Assembly (NCBI GenBank): GCA_018896215.1
Contig: JAHINB010000003.1
Span: 67,776 to 101,841, forward strand
Direction of reading: 5' to 3'
Origin: Patescibacteria group bacterium
Lineage (GTDB): Bacteria; Patescibacteriota; WWE3; 0-14-0-20-40-13
DNA length: 34,066 bases
A model generated the notes under the pieces. That model did not search any database and was not told the origin of the DNA. It worked only from the letters and a program-made list of their open reading frames with translations. Both the position numbers and the translations under genes were made by a program. Below are positions 6,528-34,066 of this stretch, in pieces. Position 1 is the stretch's first letter. Each line of letters begins with the position of its first letter.

Positions 6528-9050
6528 ATGATTGCCCCCGAGATAATAAATCAAAGCTTAGAATATTTTTCTAGATTGGATTCTGCGGAATTACTTGCCA
6601 AACTTAAATCGTCTCCCGAAGGACTTTTGGATTCCGAGGCTAGAAAGCGCTTGGTGTTGTACGGAAAAAACTTAATTAAGCAAGAAAAAAAACACCACCT
6701 GATACTGCAATTTTTGTCTAATTTTAAAAATCCCTTAATTTTGATCCTAATGGTTGTTTCCGTGATCTCAATTATTTTGGGGGATAGATTTCAAGCCAGC
6801 ATCGTGCTTGTTATAGTTGTCATGAGTGTGGCGTTAAACTTTGTTCAAGAGTACAAAGCAAATTTGGCTTCGGAAAAATTAAAAAGCAAGTTGGCTTACA
6901 CAACGGCAATTATAAGAAATGGTGTAAAAAAAGAAATTGCCACAAAAAATGTCTGTTTGGGAGATATTGTGGAGCTTAATGCTGGAGATATGATTCCAGC
7001 CGATTGTCGCATTTTAAAAAGTACAGATGTTTTTGCCAACCAATCTACAATAACTGGAGAGTCATTTCCCGCGGAAAAACATGCCGAGGAACAAAACCCC
7101 AAGGGAAAAAATTCTTTTGAGCTGACAAACATTCTTTTGCACGGTAGCAGTATTATTTCGGGTACAGCGGTTGTTCTTGTCATTAGAACTGGTAGTCGCA
7201 CGGAATTTGGAAAAGTCGCTCTAAATCTTTCCCAAAATGTTACCGAAAACGAGTTTACCAAGGGAATTCTCTCTTTTAGCCTTTTTATTTCTAAAATTAT
7301 TCTTGTTTTTGTCCTTTTTATCTTTTCGTTTACCGCTCTAGTTAAGTTTGACTTTATTAACTCTCTGATGTTTTCTGTGGCAATTGCGGTTGGTCTTACA
7401 CCGGAATTTTTGCCTATGATCATGTCGGTCTGTATGAGCAAGGGGTCACTTAACATGGCAAAAAAGGGCGTCATCGTAAAAAGATTGTCGTCCATTCCAA
7501 CTCTCGGAAGTATGGATGTCTTGTGTACCGACAAAACTGGAACGCTGACTGAAAATAAAATTAAACTCATTAAGTATATCGATCTGGCTGGTAACCATTC
7601 CGAAAAGGTGTTGTTTCACTCTTATTTAAATAGCTTCTTTCAGACGGGAATTAACAATATTATGGACGAGGCGGTCTTAAGTTTTAAAGAAGTTGATATT
7701 GCGGGGTATAAAAAAATAGACGAGATTCCCTTCGATTTTAAAAGAAAGAGAATGACAGTTGTAGTTGAAGATAAAAATAAAAATCACTTTCTTATTACAA
7801 AAGGAGCTCCCGAGGAAATATTTAAACTAGCCAGTAATATTGTAAATACAGCCAATCTTGCGGATAGGTATAAACAACTAAGTAACGAGGGTTTTAGAGT
7901 ACTTGCTGTAGCAATTAAAAAGCAACAAGTTATTAAAGAGAGGTATAGCACAAGCGACGAGTGCGATATGGAGCTCATTGGATATCTGGCATTTTTAGAT
8001 CCGCCCAAAAAAGATGTTACAAGAGTCCTTCGTGATTTGGAAAATCTTGGGATAGAAATAAAGATTATTACTGGTGACAACGAGCTTGTGGCTAGCAGAA
8101 TTTGCCAAGAGGTCGATCTTAAAGTTAAGGGTATTTTATTAGGTTCCGAAATAGATGAGATGTCCGAAGACGCGTTGTTGCAAAAAGTTAAAAACACCAC
8201 AATTTTTGCCGAATTTTTGCCCGAAGATAAAACAAAAATAATTCTAGCTCTTAAAAAAGGTGGTTTTGTTGTGGGTTATTTGGGAGATGGAATAAACGAT
8301 GCCCCTTCCTTAAAAACTGCCGATGTTGGAATATCGGTATCAAACGCCGTAGATATAGCAAGAGAAATGGCAGATATGGTTATGACTGCAAGAGGGTTAA
8401 ATCAGCTAAAAGATGGAGTTTTGGAGGGGCGCAGGACTTTTGGAAATACCATGAAGTATGTCATGATGGGAATAAGTTCCAATTTTGGTAATATGTTTAG
8501 CGTTTTGGGAGCCGTAATTTTTCTGCCTTTTTTGCCTATGCTTCCTATCCAAATTCTATTAAATAATTTAATCTACGAAACCTCGCAAGTTACCATACCG
8601 ACAGACAATGTAGACGAGGAATATCTGAACAAACCAAAAAGATGGGATGTAGGGAATATAAAAAAATTTATGCTGACATTTGGACCCATAAGCTCGCTGT
8701 TTGATTTTATTTCGTTTTTTGCTTTGTATCTATTTTTTAAAAATTCTCCCACGGGTTTTCAAACCGGGTGGTTTATGGAGTCTTTAGCTACACAAACTCT
8801 GGTTATTCATATCATTAGAACCCGAAAAATACCTTTTATTCAAAGTAGAGCAAGCAAGTATCTTATTCTTACGAGTTTAGCTGGAGTTTTAGTTGGATGG
8901 GTAATACCATTTACGCCAATTGGCAGGATTTTTAGCTTTAGCCCTTTGCCTGTCGGGGTTCTGTCAATTTTGATTGTGGTGGTAGTTTGTTATCTTGCTA
9001 CGGTTGAGATTGTAAAAAGATACGCCTTTAAAAGAAGTTTTATTTCGTAA
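6528..9050 (+). CDS. mgtA: Magnesium-translocating P-type ATPase (MgtA/MgtB type)
   Basis: 840 residues from the ATG at 6528, chosen because a TATAAT box lies 6 bases before it. The actuator motif is TGES, the membrane motif is GLTPEFLP, the phosphorylation site is DKTGTLT, and the hinge and nucleotide motifs are ITGDN and GDGINDAPSLK. The C-terminal membrane part is what marks the Mg2+ branch: LLNNLIYETSQVTIPTDNVD, GPISSLFDF, and GWFMESLATQTLVIHIIRT followed by IPFIQSRAS, all close to MgtA/MgtB. The protein imports Mg2+ at the cost of ATP in the cytoplasmic membrane. No Mg2+-sensing leader is possible if the transcript is leaderless, unlike enterobacterial mgtA. Its stop codon lies inside a tandem repeat. 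Confidence 0.93.
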   Translation: MIAPEIINQSLEYFSRLDSAELLAKLKSSPEGLLDSEARKRLVLYGKNLIKQEKKHHLILQFLSNFKNPLILILMVVSVISIILGDRFQASIVLVIVVMSVALNFVQEYKANLASEKLKSKLAYTTAIIRNGVKKEIATKNVCLGDIVELNAGDMIPADCRILKSTDVFANQSTITGESFPAEKHAEEQNPKGKNSFELTNILLHGSSIISGTAVVLVIRTGSRTEFGKVALNLSQNVTENEFTKGILSFSLFISKIILVFVLFIFSFTALVKFDFINSLMFSVAIAVGLTPEFLPMIMSVCMSKGSLNMAKKGVIVKRLSSIPTLGSMDVLCTDKTGTLTENKIKLIKYIDLAGNHSEKVLFHSYLNSFFQTGINNIMDEAVLSFKEVDIAGYKKIDEIPFDFKRKRMTVVVEDKNKNHFLITKGAPEEIFKLASNIVNTANLADRYKQLSNEGFRVLAVAIKKQQVIKERYSTSDECDMELIGYLAFLDPPKKDVTRVLRDLENLGIEIKIITGDNELVASRICQEVDLKVKGILLGSEIDEMSEDALLQKVKNTTIFAEFLPEDKTKIILALKKGGFVVGYLGDGINDAPSLKTADVGISVSNAVDIAREMADMVMTARGLNQLKDGVLEGRRTFGNTMKYVMMGISSNFGNMFSVLGAVIFLPFLPMLPIQILLNNLIYETSQVTIPTDNVDEEYLNKPKRWDVGNIKKFMLTFGPISSLFDFISFFALYLFFKNSPTGFQTGWFMESLATQTLVIHIIRTRKIPFIQSRASKYLILTSLAGVLVGWVIPFTPIGRIFSFSPLPVGVLSILIVVVVCYLATVEIVKRYAFKRSFIS

Positions 9051-9086
9051 GAAACAAACTTGTTTATTTCGTAAGAAACAAACTTG
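9039..9086. repeat. Two perfect 24-bp tandem copies at the end of mgtA
   Basis: The 24-base unit (TTTATTTCGTAA then GAAACAAACTTG) occurs twice without a mismatch and the first bases of a third copy follow. The mgtA stop codon is in copy one. Each unit contains AAACAA and TTGTTT across the junction, an inverted repeat able to form a small hairpin. Confidence 0.85.
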
Positions 9087-30839: not shown

Positions 30840-30914
30840 TGCCGGGTGGTGTAGTGGTAGCATGTTGCGCTCTGAACGCAAAGATCCTAGGTTCGAATCC
30901 TAGCCCGGCAGCCA
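30840..30914 (+). tRNA. tRNA-Gln (anticodon CUG)
   Basis: 75 nt with an encoded CCA. Acceptor TGCCGGG/CCCGGCA with U1-A72 and G73, typical for glutamine tRNA. Anticodon stem TTGCG/CGCAA encloses CTCTGAA, so the anticodon is CUG, reading CAG. T arm CTAGG-TTCGAAT-CCTAG. The last six bases (CAGCCA) are also the outer end of a 105-bp inverted repeat that bounds the recombinase element, so the tRNA is its integration site and remains intact. The antisense strand of its 3' part encodes the last codons of the recombinase frame. Confidence 0.96.
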
Positions 30915-32408
30915 GTAAAGAGAAGAAAACCACCGAGGGGTAGCACTTTCCGCGCCCGCCTCCGCAGAAAGCGCGTCAAATCCGCCTTTTTTGAAACTTG
31001 CGGACAGCCGCCGATCCTTTAAAAAGAAGTTCGAGCCGACAGTTTTTGCCATGATTGATAAATCATGGCAACTATTTTTTGCGCGCGCGATTTTGTGCGC
31101 TGAAAGCGCACTATTTACGAATTCTTGAAAAGGTTCGAGCCACTCAACGCCGTTTTGCGAAATTTCCTTAATTTTAGAGTTAAGAAGCGATTTTGTCTCG
31201 ACCAATTCATTCTTTTTCTTTTGATAATCTTCCGGAGAAATAACTTTGTCTAAATATCCTTCGAGCAATCGGTCTGTTTTTTCTTCTGTTTCTTTAAGTT
31301 GCAGCTGATAAGTTGAAACAATCCCTGTTGATTTTTCTTTTTCATTGTTTGCGTCTTTTTCCGCCCATTCAAGAAACTTTTTAGCGGCGTGCGGCGGCAG
31401 AGAAGCTTGCAAAACAATTTCTTTTAACTGCATTTCAATTTTTTCCTTATCAATATATTTTTGCGAGCAATTACCCATTTTTTTGGAACAACGGTAGTAA
31501 ATATATTCAACCGTTCTATTTGTTCGCTTGTAATACTTGATATGTTTTTCAGCGGTAATTGCGCCGCCGCATTCGCCGCACTTGGCTAAACCCAGAAAAT
31601 CAAATAGATGTTTATTGTTTTTAACTTTGCGACTTTTCAGCTTGACTACTTCCTGGCATTTATCAAAAAGTTTCTTGCTGATTAAAGGCGGGTGTTTTCC
31701 TTCATATAGTTCGCCGCAAAATTTCATCACTCCATAATAAAACGGATCGGTCAAAATTCTTTTGATTTTATCCAGATGAAGTTCATGGCCACTTTTGTTG
31801 TAAATTTTGTTTTGGTTGAAAAATTTGCGAATGTCCGCATATCCGTAACCGCCGGTGGCAAAAAGCTGAAAAGCTTTTTGCACATACTTGGCTCTTTTTT
31901 CATCAACCTCAATTTTCTTGTTAATATTTAGATAACCAAACTGCGCTTGATTGGGCCACTCACCGCGACGAAGTTTTTGTCTGTTGCCTCGCTTTACATT
32001 CTCGGAAAGATTATCAACATAATACTTAGACTGATTAAAAGCCATGCCTAACATAAACTTGCCTTGTGGGGTATTTTCAAACCAAAAGCTGGGAAATTTT
32101 AGATCAAGCAATTTTCCGGTATCCAGTAAATAGATAATCTTTCCGCCATCAACAGAATTTCTGGCCAAACGGTCAGGGTGCCAAGAGAGAATACCGGCGG
32201 CTTCGCCGTTTTCTATTTTTTCCAAAACCTCCGCAAATTTTTCTCTCCCCGGTTCTTTAGCGGTTTTACTCTCGGTAATAAAAGAAATGATCTTTAATCC
32301 TTCTTTCGCGGCGTGTTCTTCTAGTTCTGCAACTTGCGCCTCAATGGACAGAATTTGTCTATCCGGTTCATCTGTAGATTTTCTGCAATAAGCAATATAT
32401 TTGATCAT
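30900..32408 (-). CDS. Large serine recombinase (site-specific integrase)
   Basis: 502 residues. The N-terminal resolvase domain has the catalytic Ser11 in YCRKSTDE and SWHPDRLARNSVDG. The recombinase domain follows (GYLNINKKIEVDEKRAKYVQKAF), then a zinc ribbon with CGECGG and CSKKMGNC, and a long coiled-coil region. Such enzymes integrate and excise DNA circles by a covalent phosphoserine intermediate and, without a directionality factor, usually only integrate. The C-terminal ~35 residues are encoded by the left inverted repeat, and the stop (30902-30900) lies inside the tRNA gene on the other strand, so the frame's end is supplied by the target. AGGAG lies 15 bases before the ATG. Confidence 0.93.
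   Translation of the reverse strand: MIKYIAYCRKSTDEPDRQILSIEAQVAELEEHAAKEGLKIISFITESKTAKEPGREKFAEVLEKIENGEAAGILSWHPDRLARNSVDGGKIIYLLDTGKLLDLKFPSFWFENTPQGKFMLGMAFNQSKYYVDNLSENVKRGNRQKLRRGEWPNQAQFGYLNINKKIEVDEKRAKYVQKAFQLFATGGYGYADIRKFFNQNKIYNKSGHELHLDKIKRILTDPFYYGVMKFCGELYEGKHPPLISKKLFDKCQEVVKLKSRKVKNNKHLFDFLGLAKCGECGGAITAEKHIKYYKRTNRTVEYIYYRCSKKMGNCSQKYIDKEKIEMQLKEIVLQASLPPHAAKKFLEWAEKDANNEKEKSTGIVSTYQLQLKETEEKTDRLLEGYLDKVISPEDYQKKKNELVETKSLLNSKIKEISQNGVEWLEPFQEFVNSALSAHKIARAKNSCHDLSIMAKTVGSNFFLKDRRLSASFKKGGFDALSAEAGAESATPRWFSSLYWLPG
30909..31013 (+). repeat. Left 105-bp inverted repeat of unit 1
   Basis: Identical to the complement of 32507-32611 except for one base (30945, A here; C on the plus strand at 32575, so G in complement). 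It begins CAGCCAGTAAAGAGAAG. It encodes the recombinase C-terminus on the minus strand. Confidence 0.95.
31029..31045 (-). repeat. 17-bp segment shared with the left arm of unit 2
   Basis: The complement reads AAACTGTCGGCTCGAAC and recurs exactly at 32729-32745 on the plus strand. In the recombinase it encodes KTVGSN. Confidence 0.85.
31051..31069. repeat. Palindrome inside the recombinase coding region
   Basis: TTGCCATGATT and AATCATGGCAA (about 31046-31071) form an 11-bp inverted repeat with a four-base loop within the frame. In unit 2 the two segments that flank this palindrome are instead separated by the unit itself. Confidence 0.55.
31072..31090 (-). repeat. 3' module of unit 1
   Basis: The complement of CTATTTTTTGCGCGCGCGA. 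An inverted copy is at 33925-33943 after the last gene of unit 2. Here it encodes part of the recombinase (ARAKNS). Confidence 0.8.
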
Positions 32409-32429
32409 ATTTTTTTATCTTATCTCCTA

Positions 32430-32496
32430 AAAGTTCTTTAAGCGAACGATAGTGAGTAGTCCCGCCACTGCGGGACAATTTTTGCGTTTTTTCTTT
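32430..32496 (-). repeat. 5' module of unit 1
   Basis: On the minus strand AAAGAAAAAACGCAAAAATT (32496-32477) and TTAAAGAACTTT (32441-32430) lie just before the recombinase start. Both recur upstream of the first gene of unit 2. A 35-base insert with the hairpin GTCCCGC/GCGGGAC (32459-32476) separates them here. Confidence 0.75.
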
Positions 32497-32506
32497 CTTC
32501 TTTTTC

Positions 32507-32611
32507 CGGCGGCTGTCCGCAAGTTTCAAAAAAGGCGGATTTGACGCGCTTTCTGCGGAGGCGGGCGCGGAAAGCGCTACCCCTCGGTGGTTTTCTTCTC
32601 TTTACTGGCTG
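32507..32611 (-). repeat. Right 105-bp inverted repeat of unit 1
   Basis: Inverted partner of 30909-31013, 104 of 105 bases the same. Its last ten bases, TTACTGGCTG, are also the first ten of the unit 2 left repeat. Confidence 0.95.
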
Positions 32612-32728
32612 GCCGTTTACAAAAAATGTCGAACTTCATTTGATTAGCTCGCCGCTTCGCGGCTCGCTTGCTCCAGCGCGGCGCCTTTATACTGAGCTTG
32701 TCGAATGTGCCCACCCGCCGCGCCTCCG
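32602..32728 (+). repeat. Left inverted repeat of unit 2, with a 24-bp insertion
   Basis: Without 32686-32709 it is 103 bases long and matches the complement of 33944-34046 with about eight mismatches, counted by eye, most in one cluster near 32638-32646. Confidence 0.9.
32686..32709. repeat. 24-bp insertion containing CTGAGCTTGTCGAA
   Basis: Bases present only in the left arm: GGCGCC and CCCACC are adjacent in the right arm but separated here by 24 bases. The insert is related to the repeat inside rnpB at 10373. Confidence 0.75.
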
Positions 32729-32767
32729 AAACTGTCGGCTCGAACAATCCCGATGAAATCGGGATCA

Positions 32768-32800
32768 AAAGAAAAAACGCAAAAAATTTTAAAGAACTTT
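32768..32800 (+). repeat. 5' module of unit 2
   Basis: AAAGAAAAAACGCAAAAAATT, here split as AAAGAAAAAACGC and an A-run, then TTAAAGAACTTT (32789-32800). It is the plus-strand counterpart of 32430-32496 without the hairpin insert and precedes the membrane protein gene. Confidence 0.75.
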
Positions 32801-32811
32801 CTATCATTTCA

Positions 32812-33666
32812 ATGATGTATTATAAGTCTCTATGGACTAATAGTACAACAGTAGATAAAATAAAACAAGTAGATTTAACCAATACAAATATGACTTCTAT
32901 AACTAAAGCAATACTTACATTTACGGTTTTAATTATTCTGTTCTTCGTATATGCGTATGGTGTCTTTTTTCAAATTCCCATATTTAATGGATACCCACTA
33001 ACTTTACAGCATGTCTTTGAACCAATATTTTATGTCTTTATATTTGCAATTGGTAACTACTATATCTATAAATCTGTTTATTTTCGTAAAATACGAAGCG
33101 ATAAAAATAATGATAAACAAAGTATCGTTGTTCCGACTTTTCTTCTTCTACTATTTTTAGGTATTGGTTTTGGTGTTCATACGACTGCTCAATTAATTGA
33201 GGATTTCCTTGGACACCAAAACGAAAGCCTTTTATATCAAATTGTATTCTTTCTCGACGAAGGACCTGGGCATTGGCTCGTTTCTATACCACTTCTTCTG
33301 CTTTATTTCTTTCTTCTTAAAATTGAGCTAAATCGGGAAAAGAACAAAGTTAACAATATAGACAAATTCTTTATTATTTTTTGTTCTTTAATAATTGGAC
33401 TCGGGCTTGGGATATCCGGTTTTGAAGGAAATTTTAACGGCTTTGCCCAGCATTTTTTAATGACACCTATAATTATTGGTATCCTCTATAAAATATACAG
33501 GTATAGAGAAAATAAACTTTTCAAATTTTGGATATATCCTTTTACTACTTTTTTAGTTTTAACATTTAGTATTTATTTAATATTTACTTTGGTATTTGGT
33601 TTGTCATTGGGATTTACAATTAATCCCGATGCAGACTTGAGATGGATAATTAAACTGCCGTTTTGA
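32812..33666 (+). CDS. Seven-helix membrane protein of unknown function (cassette cargo)
   Basis: 284 residues from the ATG at 32812 (or the next ATG at 32815). The open frame extends back to 32668, but that part is repeat DNA and lies upstream of a likely TATCAT box. About seven hydrophobic helices: near 31-52, 67-90, 106-123, 155-173, 187-204, 216-232 and 243-270. Polar groups in or near helices include HVFEP, GVHTTAQLIEDF and DEGPGHWL, a pattern of His and acidic residues that might bind a metal or cofactor. I know no matching family. It is followed by an XRE regulator 12 bases later. Confidence 0.65.
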   Translation: MMYYKSLWTNSTTVDKIKQVDLTNTNMTSITKAILTFTVLIILFFVYAYGVFFQIPIFNGYPLTLQHVFEPIFYVFIFAIGNYYIYKSVYFRKIRSDKNNDKQSIVVPTFLLLLFLGIGFGVHTTAQLIEDFLGHQNESLLYQIVFFLDEGPGHWLVSIPLLLLYFFLLKIELNREKNKVNNIDKFFIIFCSLIIGLGLGISGFEGNFNGFAQHFLMTPIIIGILYKIYRYRENKLFKFWIYPFTTFLVLTFSIYLIFTLVFGLSLGFTINPDADLRWIIKLPF

Positions 33667-33678
33667 TGGCTAAATATT

Positions 33679-33900
33679 ATGTTGATAACGAAAAGTAAAA
33701 ACATTTCAAAAATATTTGGGAAAAACTTAAAAAAACTTAGAGTGGAAAAACAAATGTCTCAAGGTGATATTGCACGAGCTTTAGGTGTGCATCGCTCTTA
33801 TATCAGTGGTCTGGAAAGAGGAGTTAGAAATCCTACACTAATCAATATTGAACGCATAGCTAGGGCAATGGGTGCTGAAATAAGAAAATTATTAGAGTAA
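33679..33900 (+). CDS. XRE-family helix-turn-helix regulator (cassette cargo)
   Basis: 73 residues, almost entirely a Cro/C1-type domain: FGKNLKKLRVEKQMSQGDI, then ALGVHRSYISGLERGVRNP and a final helix IERIARAMGAEIRKLL. SQGDIARALGVHRSYISGLE is the DNA-binding helix-turn-helix. It probably binds its own promoter. It lies 12 bases after the membrane protein gene, as in a two-gene cassette. It might control the cassette, the membrane protein, or the recombinase of unit 1. A hairpin (GCTCGGC/GCCGAGC, from 33903) follows its stop. Confidence 0.88.
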   Translation: MLITKSKNISKIFGKNLKKLRVEKQMSQGDIARALGVHRSYISGLERGVRNPTLINIERIARAMGAEIRKLLE

Positions 33901-33924
33901 AGGCTCGGCGGAGCCGAGCAAAAT

Positions 33925-33943
33925 TCGCGCGCGCAAAAAATAG
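33925..33943 (+). repeat. 3' module of unit 2
   Basis: TCGCGCGCGCAAAAAATAG, the exact inverted copy of 31072-31090, just after the XRE gene. It is a remnant of recombinase coding sequence (ARAKNS in one frame). Confidence 0.8.
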
Positions 33944-34046
33944 CGGAGGCGCGGCGGGTGGGGGCGCCACGCTGGAGCAAGCGAGCCACGAAGCGGCGAG
34001 CTAGCACATTGAAGTTCGACATTTTTTGTAAACGGTCAGCCAGTAA
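33944..34046 (-). repeat. Right inverted repeat of unit 2
   Basis: 103 bases, inverted partner of 32602-32728 without its insertion. It ends at CAGCCAGTAA (34037-34046), a third boundary copy in the same orientation as at the tRNA. Confidence 0.9.
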
Positions 34047-34066
34047 GAAGAAGAAAGCCGCGAAGA
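34047..34066 (+). other. Possible start of a third unit
   Basis: After the boundary, the bases AAGAAGAAAGCC resemble the start of the unit 1 repeat (13 of 20 positions agree). Too short to say more; the window ends here. Confidence 0.35.

Follow-up and report, generated by a model that had tools for sequence, protein, structure and literature searches.

Organization of the Recombinase Locus

The analyzed stretch of DNA (the window) has a length of 34,066 nucleotides and harbors, close to its right end, a tRNA-Gln gene followed by two adjoining inverted-repeat units (Table 1). The first unit is framed by 105-nt inverted arms, which match at 104 of 105 positions (99% complementary), as given in a preliminary description of the locus, and are separated by 1,493 nt. 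A match of this length and identity is far beyond random expectation and a chance match is excluded. Within the whole 772-kb assembly, the 105-mer is present only at its two positions in the window. The sole long open reading frame between the arms encodes a large serine recombinase (LSR), in agreement with the same description, and the protein contains Resolvase, Recombinase and zinc-ribbon domains. The reading frame crosses the left arm and stops within the tRNA-Gln gene. Since the tRNA predicted by ARAGORN ends at position 30914, the outer arm starts with the last six tRNA bases, which had likewise been recognized before.

The 1,703-bp recombinase unit of the preliminary description is real, but it represents only half of the object: a second inverted-repeat unit (32589–34046), which carries the cargo, directly abuts it. 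The arms of this cargo unit are 89% identical. The end of the window is also the end of contig C3 and lies inside the next repeat. A third unit was found on contig C19 (locus L014; 3,205 bp), whose 137-bp inverted arms are identical and include the X motif, and contig C1 (locus L012) terminates in the same b arm, resulting in the array order C3-C19-C1. At the junctions of this array, an a half (or the related arm of C19) meets a b half or the tRNA around the core CAGC. Other multi-unit arrays are clear in L044 and L091 only and possible in L082 and L157.

The layout of the window, starting from the tRNA, is tRNA/a-recombinase-a'/b'-cargo-b/chromosome. The locus is hence an integrated LSR element that carries one additional attP (a'b'), complete and inverted, upstream of the recombinase gene.

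Three further observations were made in this genome. The C19 unit is chimeric and combines cargo-type X motifs at both ends with arms of the a type, as would result from a swap of half-sites. On C1 (L012:7857–9390), a truncated PHP/ATPase gene and a truncated RidA gene are fused immediately ahead of the b arm, which suggests a deletion at the far end of the array. A perfect 24-bp tandem duplication is located at positions 9039–9086 of the window near the end of a P-type ATPase gene.

Table 1. Position, strand and basis of the features at the recombinase locus (coordinates of the window).
Feature	Position	Strand	Basis or remark
tRNA-Gln (CTG)	30840–30914	+	ARAGORN; integration target, whose 3' end forms the non-element half (t) of attL
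Core CAGC of attL (t.a)	30909–30912	+	In relatives such as L030, one core for the t.a, a'.b' and b.c sites
Outer a arm, also coding for the recombinase C-terminus	30909–31013	+	Inverted-repeat match; open frame in relatives
Large serine recombinase, 502 aa	30900–32408	-	PF00239, PF07508, PF13408; PHROG 95 integrase
Y motif, outer end of recombinase unit	31072–31094		Inverted copy at 33921–33943
X motif, inner end of recombinase unit	32477–32499		–
Inner a' arm	32507–32611	-	Inverted-repeat match
Core of internal inverted attP (P2 = a'.b')	32608–32611	-	4-bp overlap of two repeat pairs, commonest case among relatives
Inner b' arm of cargo unit, including core and overlap with a'	32589–32685	-	Inverted-repeat match
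X motif, inner end of cargo unit	32763–32805		–
Cargo: predicted membrane protein	32668–33666	+	EpsG match is weak; translation probably starts downstream of listed TTG
Cargo: small XRE/HTH_3 regulator	33682–33900	+	PF01381, 3e-16
Y motif, outer end of cargo unit	33921–33943		Inverted-repeat match
Outer b arm	33963–34059	+	Inverted-repeat match
Next core and first bases of the a-type arm of the third unit	34037–34066	+	Continues in C19 (L014), then C1 (L012)

Recurrence of the Element Among Relatives

A total of 166 distinct recombinase genes were analyzed. They came from eighty relatives retrieved out of a genome collection, from a survey covering 380 Patescibacteria genomes and from further loci. 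In the survey, 71 of the 380 genomes were positive at E ≤ 1e-110. The testable set comprised 94 recombinases with at least 41% identity (41–93%) and enough flanking sequence. The a-arm inverted repeats were identified in 85 of these, with a median length of 103 nt and a median identity of 99% (calculated for all 86 repeat-bearing genes). The 94 recombinases include 62 with an adjoining b-arm pair (median 107 nt, 99%) and 78 that lie directly next to a tRNA gene. The overlap of the two repeat pairs at the internal site is most often 4 bp. At least 18 kinds of tRNA gene serve as targets and the hosts are Patescibacteria and a few other phyla. The arm, which the preliminary description proposed to look for beside recombinase genes of other genomes, does occur there.

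Of ten LSRs with lower identity (<41%), seven are located next to a tRNA, but repeats of any kind were found in only one; the majority of those without repeats belong to the class of the window and show 31–37% identity. Because the distant LSRs mostly abut tRNAs and yet lack the repeats, the inverted attP and its repeats are a derived trait of this clade. Eight relatives are 91–93% identical to the recombinase of the window, mostly from metagenome-assembled genomes (MAGs) that bear the names of different Microgenomates groups (Gottesman-, Roizman-, Chisholm-, Levy-, Collier- and Blackburnbacteria). Such identity across differently labelled MAGs points to a recent spread. No relative was found in IMG/VR, and the plasmid and phage collections contained only distant LSRs with at most 28.8% identity among the matches listed.

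Contigs often break at these repeats, as would be seen with the terminal inverted repeats of an ordinary transposon or with an assembly artefact, the latter having been named before as what might explain the arms. Either explanation is extremely unlikely. The layout recurs at about 85 other recombinase loci, and the repeats are not an assembly fault since they are present inside complete or one-contig genomes, among them CP011210 with three elements (L036/L123, L074/L125 and L126). At tRNA ends, moreover, the a and b arms, which differ from each other, invariably alternate around a 4-bp core, and the LSR is the only conserved gene.

Attachment Sites and Proposed Mode of Integration

Each element contains three sites with one common core, namely L (tRNA.a), P2 (b.a, in inverted orientation within the element) and R (b.chromosome). 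The core is CAGC for the tRNA-Gln elements and GCAC for tRNA-Leu in L030. The L030 element sits exactly between tRNA-Leu(GAG) and tRNA-Val, which are 24 bp apart in L028, where no element is present. The attL and attR sites share the short core with the attP halves b and a and with the host attB halves, the attB being deduced at the tRNA-Leu/Val site of L030. The integration itself is of the ordinary LSR type with attP = b.a. The locus had been suggested to differ from the usual integrated circle. This applies to its modular structure and the extra inverted attP, but short direct 4-bp cores (t.a and b.c) are present. The a arm of the Gln elements was additionally observed to supply an encoded CCA (G-CCA) to the tRNA (window 30909–30920), whereas the deduced empty site of L030 (CAGC-ACACG) is without CCA.

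P2 is always located just upstream of the recombinase gene. As a second complete inverted attP, it places an a half at both ends of the recombinase unit and a b half at both ends of the cargo unit, which results in the long inverted arms. In 96 of 97 elements, the recombinase frame stays open through the outer a arm, compared to 42 and 34 for the other two frames; this arm hence codes for the recombinase C-terminus. Its inner counterpart is a non-coding copy.

The object is an integrative element driven by an LSR at the 3' end of tRNA-Gln, with the integration attP (P1 = b.a) split into attL (tRNA.a) and attR (b.chromosome). Its second, inverted attP would probably serve to link the modules, and the arms would be maintained by copying. 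The element would leave as one circle via attL x attR and integrate through P1; closed circles were not detected among 25 short contigs. Recombination with the inverted P2 would flip a module but could not delete one, so that the recombinase and its cargo may stay linked while the modules remain exchangeable. Where P2 is reversed or absent, the cargo would form an ordinary a...b cassette, which could be inserted by a recombinase in trans.

Cargo Units and Recombinase-Less Cassettes

The cargo units span 0.6–7.4 kb inside the arms with a median of 2.2 kb. The DNA methylase family PF01555 was matched by 7 of the 87 cargo proteins scanned. Other matches included NgoPII, Mrr, LexA-like proteins, a carbamoyltransferase, a P-type ATPase and a vitamin transporter. 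The cargo is varied and includes restriction-modification, transporters and others, with no conserved phage or conjugation genes among the listed cargo families.

Cargo-only a...b cassettes were found without a cognate recombinase; their a half is next to the tRNA and their b half at the opposite end. L217 is such a cassette of 1,425 bp at tRNA-Gln in a one-contig genome, in which the best recombinase is only 42% identical, and L218 is located at tRNA-Glu. In L220, most of the recombinase gene is lost and the leader and the C-terminus are kept. These findings support the earlier suggestion of a cassette-like element, which is modular and of which cargo-only forms exist.

Orientation of the Modules

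A tRNA lies at the 3' end of 115 recombinases (at least 41% identity), all of which are oriented into it. Only two of 117 point away from it (L063 and C15), and both are cut by contig ends. The L063 recombinase runs away from tRNA-Glu, and the one on C15 (L015), which is the second recombinase of the window's genome and 66% identical, runs away from tRNA-Ser. The latter (L015:1–850) may be an inverted module or the result of an integration through P2. Of 43 elements that could be scored clearly, 42 have the X motifs of the cargo unit at P2 and its Y motifs on the outer side; 21 others were uninformative or had background scores. The single clearly inverted cargo unit is that of L062, which carries a vitamin/queuosine-type transporter.

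The inversion of modules thus seems to be possible but rare, or rarely survives. The unit was previously suggested to be possibly self-inverting, which the fixed orientation of both modules (115 recombinases into the tRNA and two away from it; 42 of 43 cargo units in one orientation) does not bear out. The near-identical inverted sites and the three inverted examples (L062 for the cargo, L063 and C15 for the recombinase) are what a switch would leave behind, in which genes would be turned on and off through regular inversion of the recombinase module or the cargo module by the recombinase. Such a switch is very unlikely, given that the ratios of 115:2 and 42:1 do not support regular inversion and that the domain content is that of an LSR and not of the small invertase type. 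For the integrative element favored here, the orientation also poses a difficulty: many integrations through P2 would be expected if P1 and P2 were biochemically equal, but these would account for at most 2 of 117 cases. Some distinguishing factor must therefore exist, such as the X/Y flanks, transcription or selection.

A Pseudoknot Leader RNA Upstream of the Recombinase Gene

Many cargo units contain a pseudoknot (about 105 nt) at their P2 end, which follows a TATATT box and points to the recombinase gene. It occurs at L030:7002–7130, L114:1376–1482, L014:2853–2957 and several dozen other loci. In L114, L117, L136 and L144 it is found directly upstream of the recombinase ORF. The cargo unit of the window itself has no pseudoknot leader, but C19 has one. 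In the two helices, 99.5% of the cells are paired, and 89 double changes were counted compared to 28 in shuffles; all slid controls were far lower. No Rfam family matches the leader. A model search was positive in 23 of 286 Patescibacteria genomes, mostly beside LSRs. The leader represents a new, covarying pseudoknot RNA upstream of many of these Patescibacteria recombinases.

Many elements carry the leader in their cargo unit, and an invertible-promoter role of P2 was considered for this reason. This role was rejected as a general one because P2 is located upstream of the promoter in other elements.

The position of P2 could also be explained by an operator function. The recombinase would bind P2 upstream of its own gene, usually between the promoter with the leader RNA and the ORF, and repress itself once integrated, while the identity of the arms would result from the binding constraint and ordinary gene conversion. 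The constant position of P2 just upstream of the recombinase gene is in line with this, as are the leader RNA and the −10-like box beyond P2 in most leader-carrying elements and the fact that P1 is destroyed by integration whereas P2 survives. An operator nevertheless appears unlikely. Identity over about 100 bp per side is more than a binding site needs, P2 is found upstream of the promoter and leader in some elements (L136 and L144), and a binding constraint leaves the wide divergence of the arms between sister elements, with matching copies in each, unexplained.

Identity and Concerted Evolution of the Arms

This divergence is considerable. Between elements whose recombinase DNA is 85–93% identical, the arms share 57–97% identity. 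For L170 and L172, the genes are 92.7% and the arms 71.1% identical, and within each element the copies match at 100%. Over the 76 nt next to the core, the median identity of the two a copies within an element is 100%, and 88 of 115 pairs reach at least 97%. The arm copies of one element thus evolve in strong concert. Since both copies change together and faster than the gene, a copying process is needed. In the integrative element with a linking P2 favored above, this would be P1–P2 copying, either by gene conversion or by fold-back synthesis. The mismatches between arm copies are commonest 10–30 nt from the core, which argues against a simple conversion model, as this does not predict such a peak. 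In L035:1–1162, the recombinase 5' region is repeated as a perfect inverted copy of 448 bp on the opposite side of P2, which may be a long copying tract or an assembly fold-back.

The arms could also be required in a folded form. A single strand, e.g., taken up by competence, would pair P1 with the strand of P2 and form one double-stranded attP between two single-stranded loops. With P2 as the internal complement of P1, the long identity, the change in lockstep and the near-fixed orientation would be explained. Both halves would have to match over their full length, as observed, and P2 is hardly ever used alone. The longer P2-centered inverted copies (the 137-bp arms of C19, including X, and the 448 bp at 100% in L035) would fit as well. 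Serine recombinases cut both strands of both sites and are not known to use a single-strand route. Joining of a folded site would consequently leave hairpin-ended chromosomes, and this explanation is considered improbable. We attach similarly little probability to the broader view that the element moves via a single-stranded or folded intermediate in which the copies pair into one site, as a serine counterpart of integron attC recombination with the arm identity renewed at each move.

Comparison With Known Systems

The element is a variant of the LSR integrative elements and not an integron or an invertase system. It shares with phage integrases and the TnpX, CcrA/B and XisF types the Resolvase, Recombinase and zinc-ribbon domains, the circle-type integration, the short common core and an attP that lies partly inside the 3' end of the integrase gene. 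It differs in its second complete inverted attP, the arms of about 100 bp that are kept identical, the many tRNA species used and the lack of a conserved phage, conjugation or excisionase gene. A single attP is a usual, though not strictly defining, trait of LSR elements, whereas most elements described here carry a second one.

Similar to integrons, there are one recombinase, small varied cargo units, recombinase-less cassettes and occasional multi-unit arrays. In contrast to them, the recombinase is a serine and not a tyrosine enzyme (no IntI was found at the locus, only the serine recombinase), the site orientations alternate, the sites lie in tRNA genes, and attC-type sites are not among the features established here. 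Inverted recombination sites also flank the recombinase gene in the Hin, Gin and Cin inversion systems, but here the enzyme is an LSR of about 500 aa and the orientation is almost fixed. Genomic islands in tRNA genes likewise insert at the 3' end, with the gene being reconstituted by the element. Compared to these, the element is very small (about 3–10 kb) and has two opposed modules and an inverted internal attP. Unlike in prophages, ICEs and plasmids, no capsid, conjugation or replication genes are among the listed cargo families. No description of the element was found in the open PMC full text, which is consistent with the undescribed system proposed in the preliminary description.

Patescibacteria have tiny genomes with few recognized mobile elements. 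In 71 of the 380 sampled genomes, a compact mobile element is now found that crosses lineages at 91–93% protein identity and uses many tRNA targets. Its LSR enzymes come with att sites that can be read directly from the genomes. The mirrored attP copies raise the testable question of why, and how, two inverted copies are kept identical.
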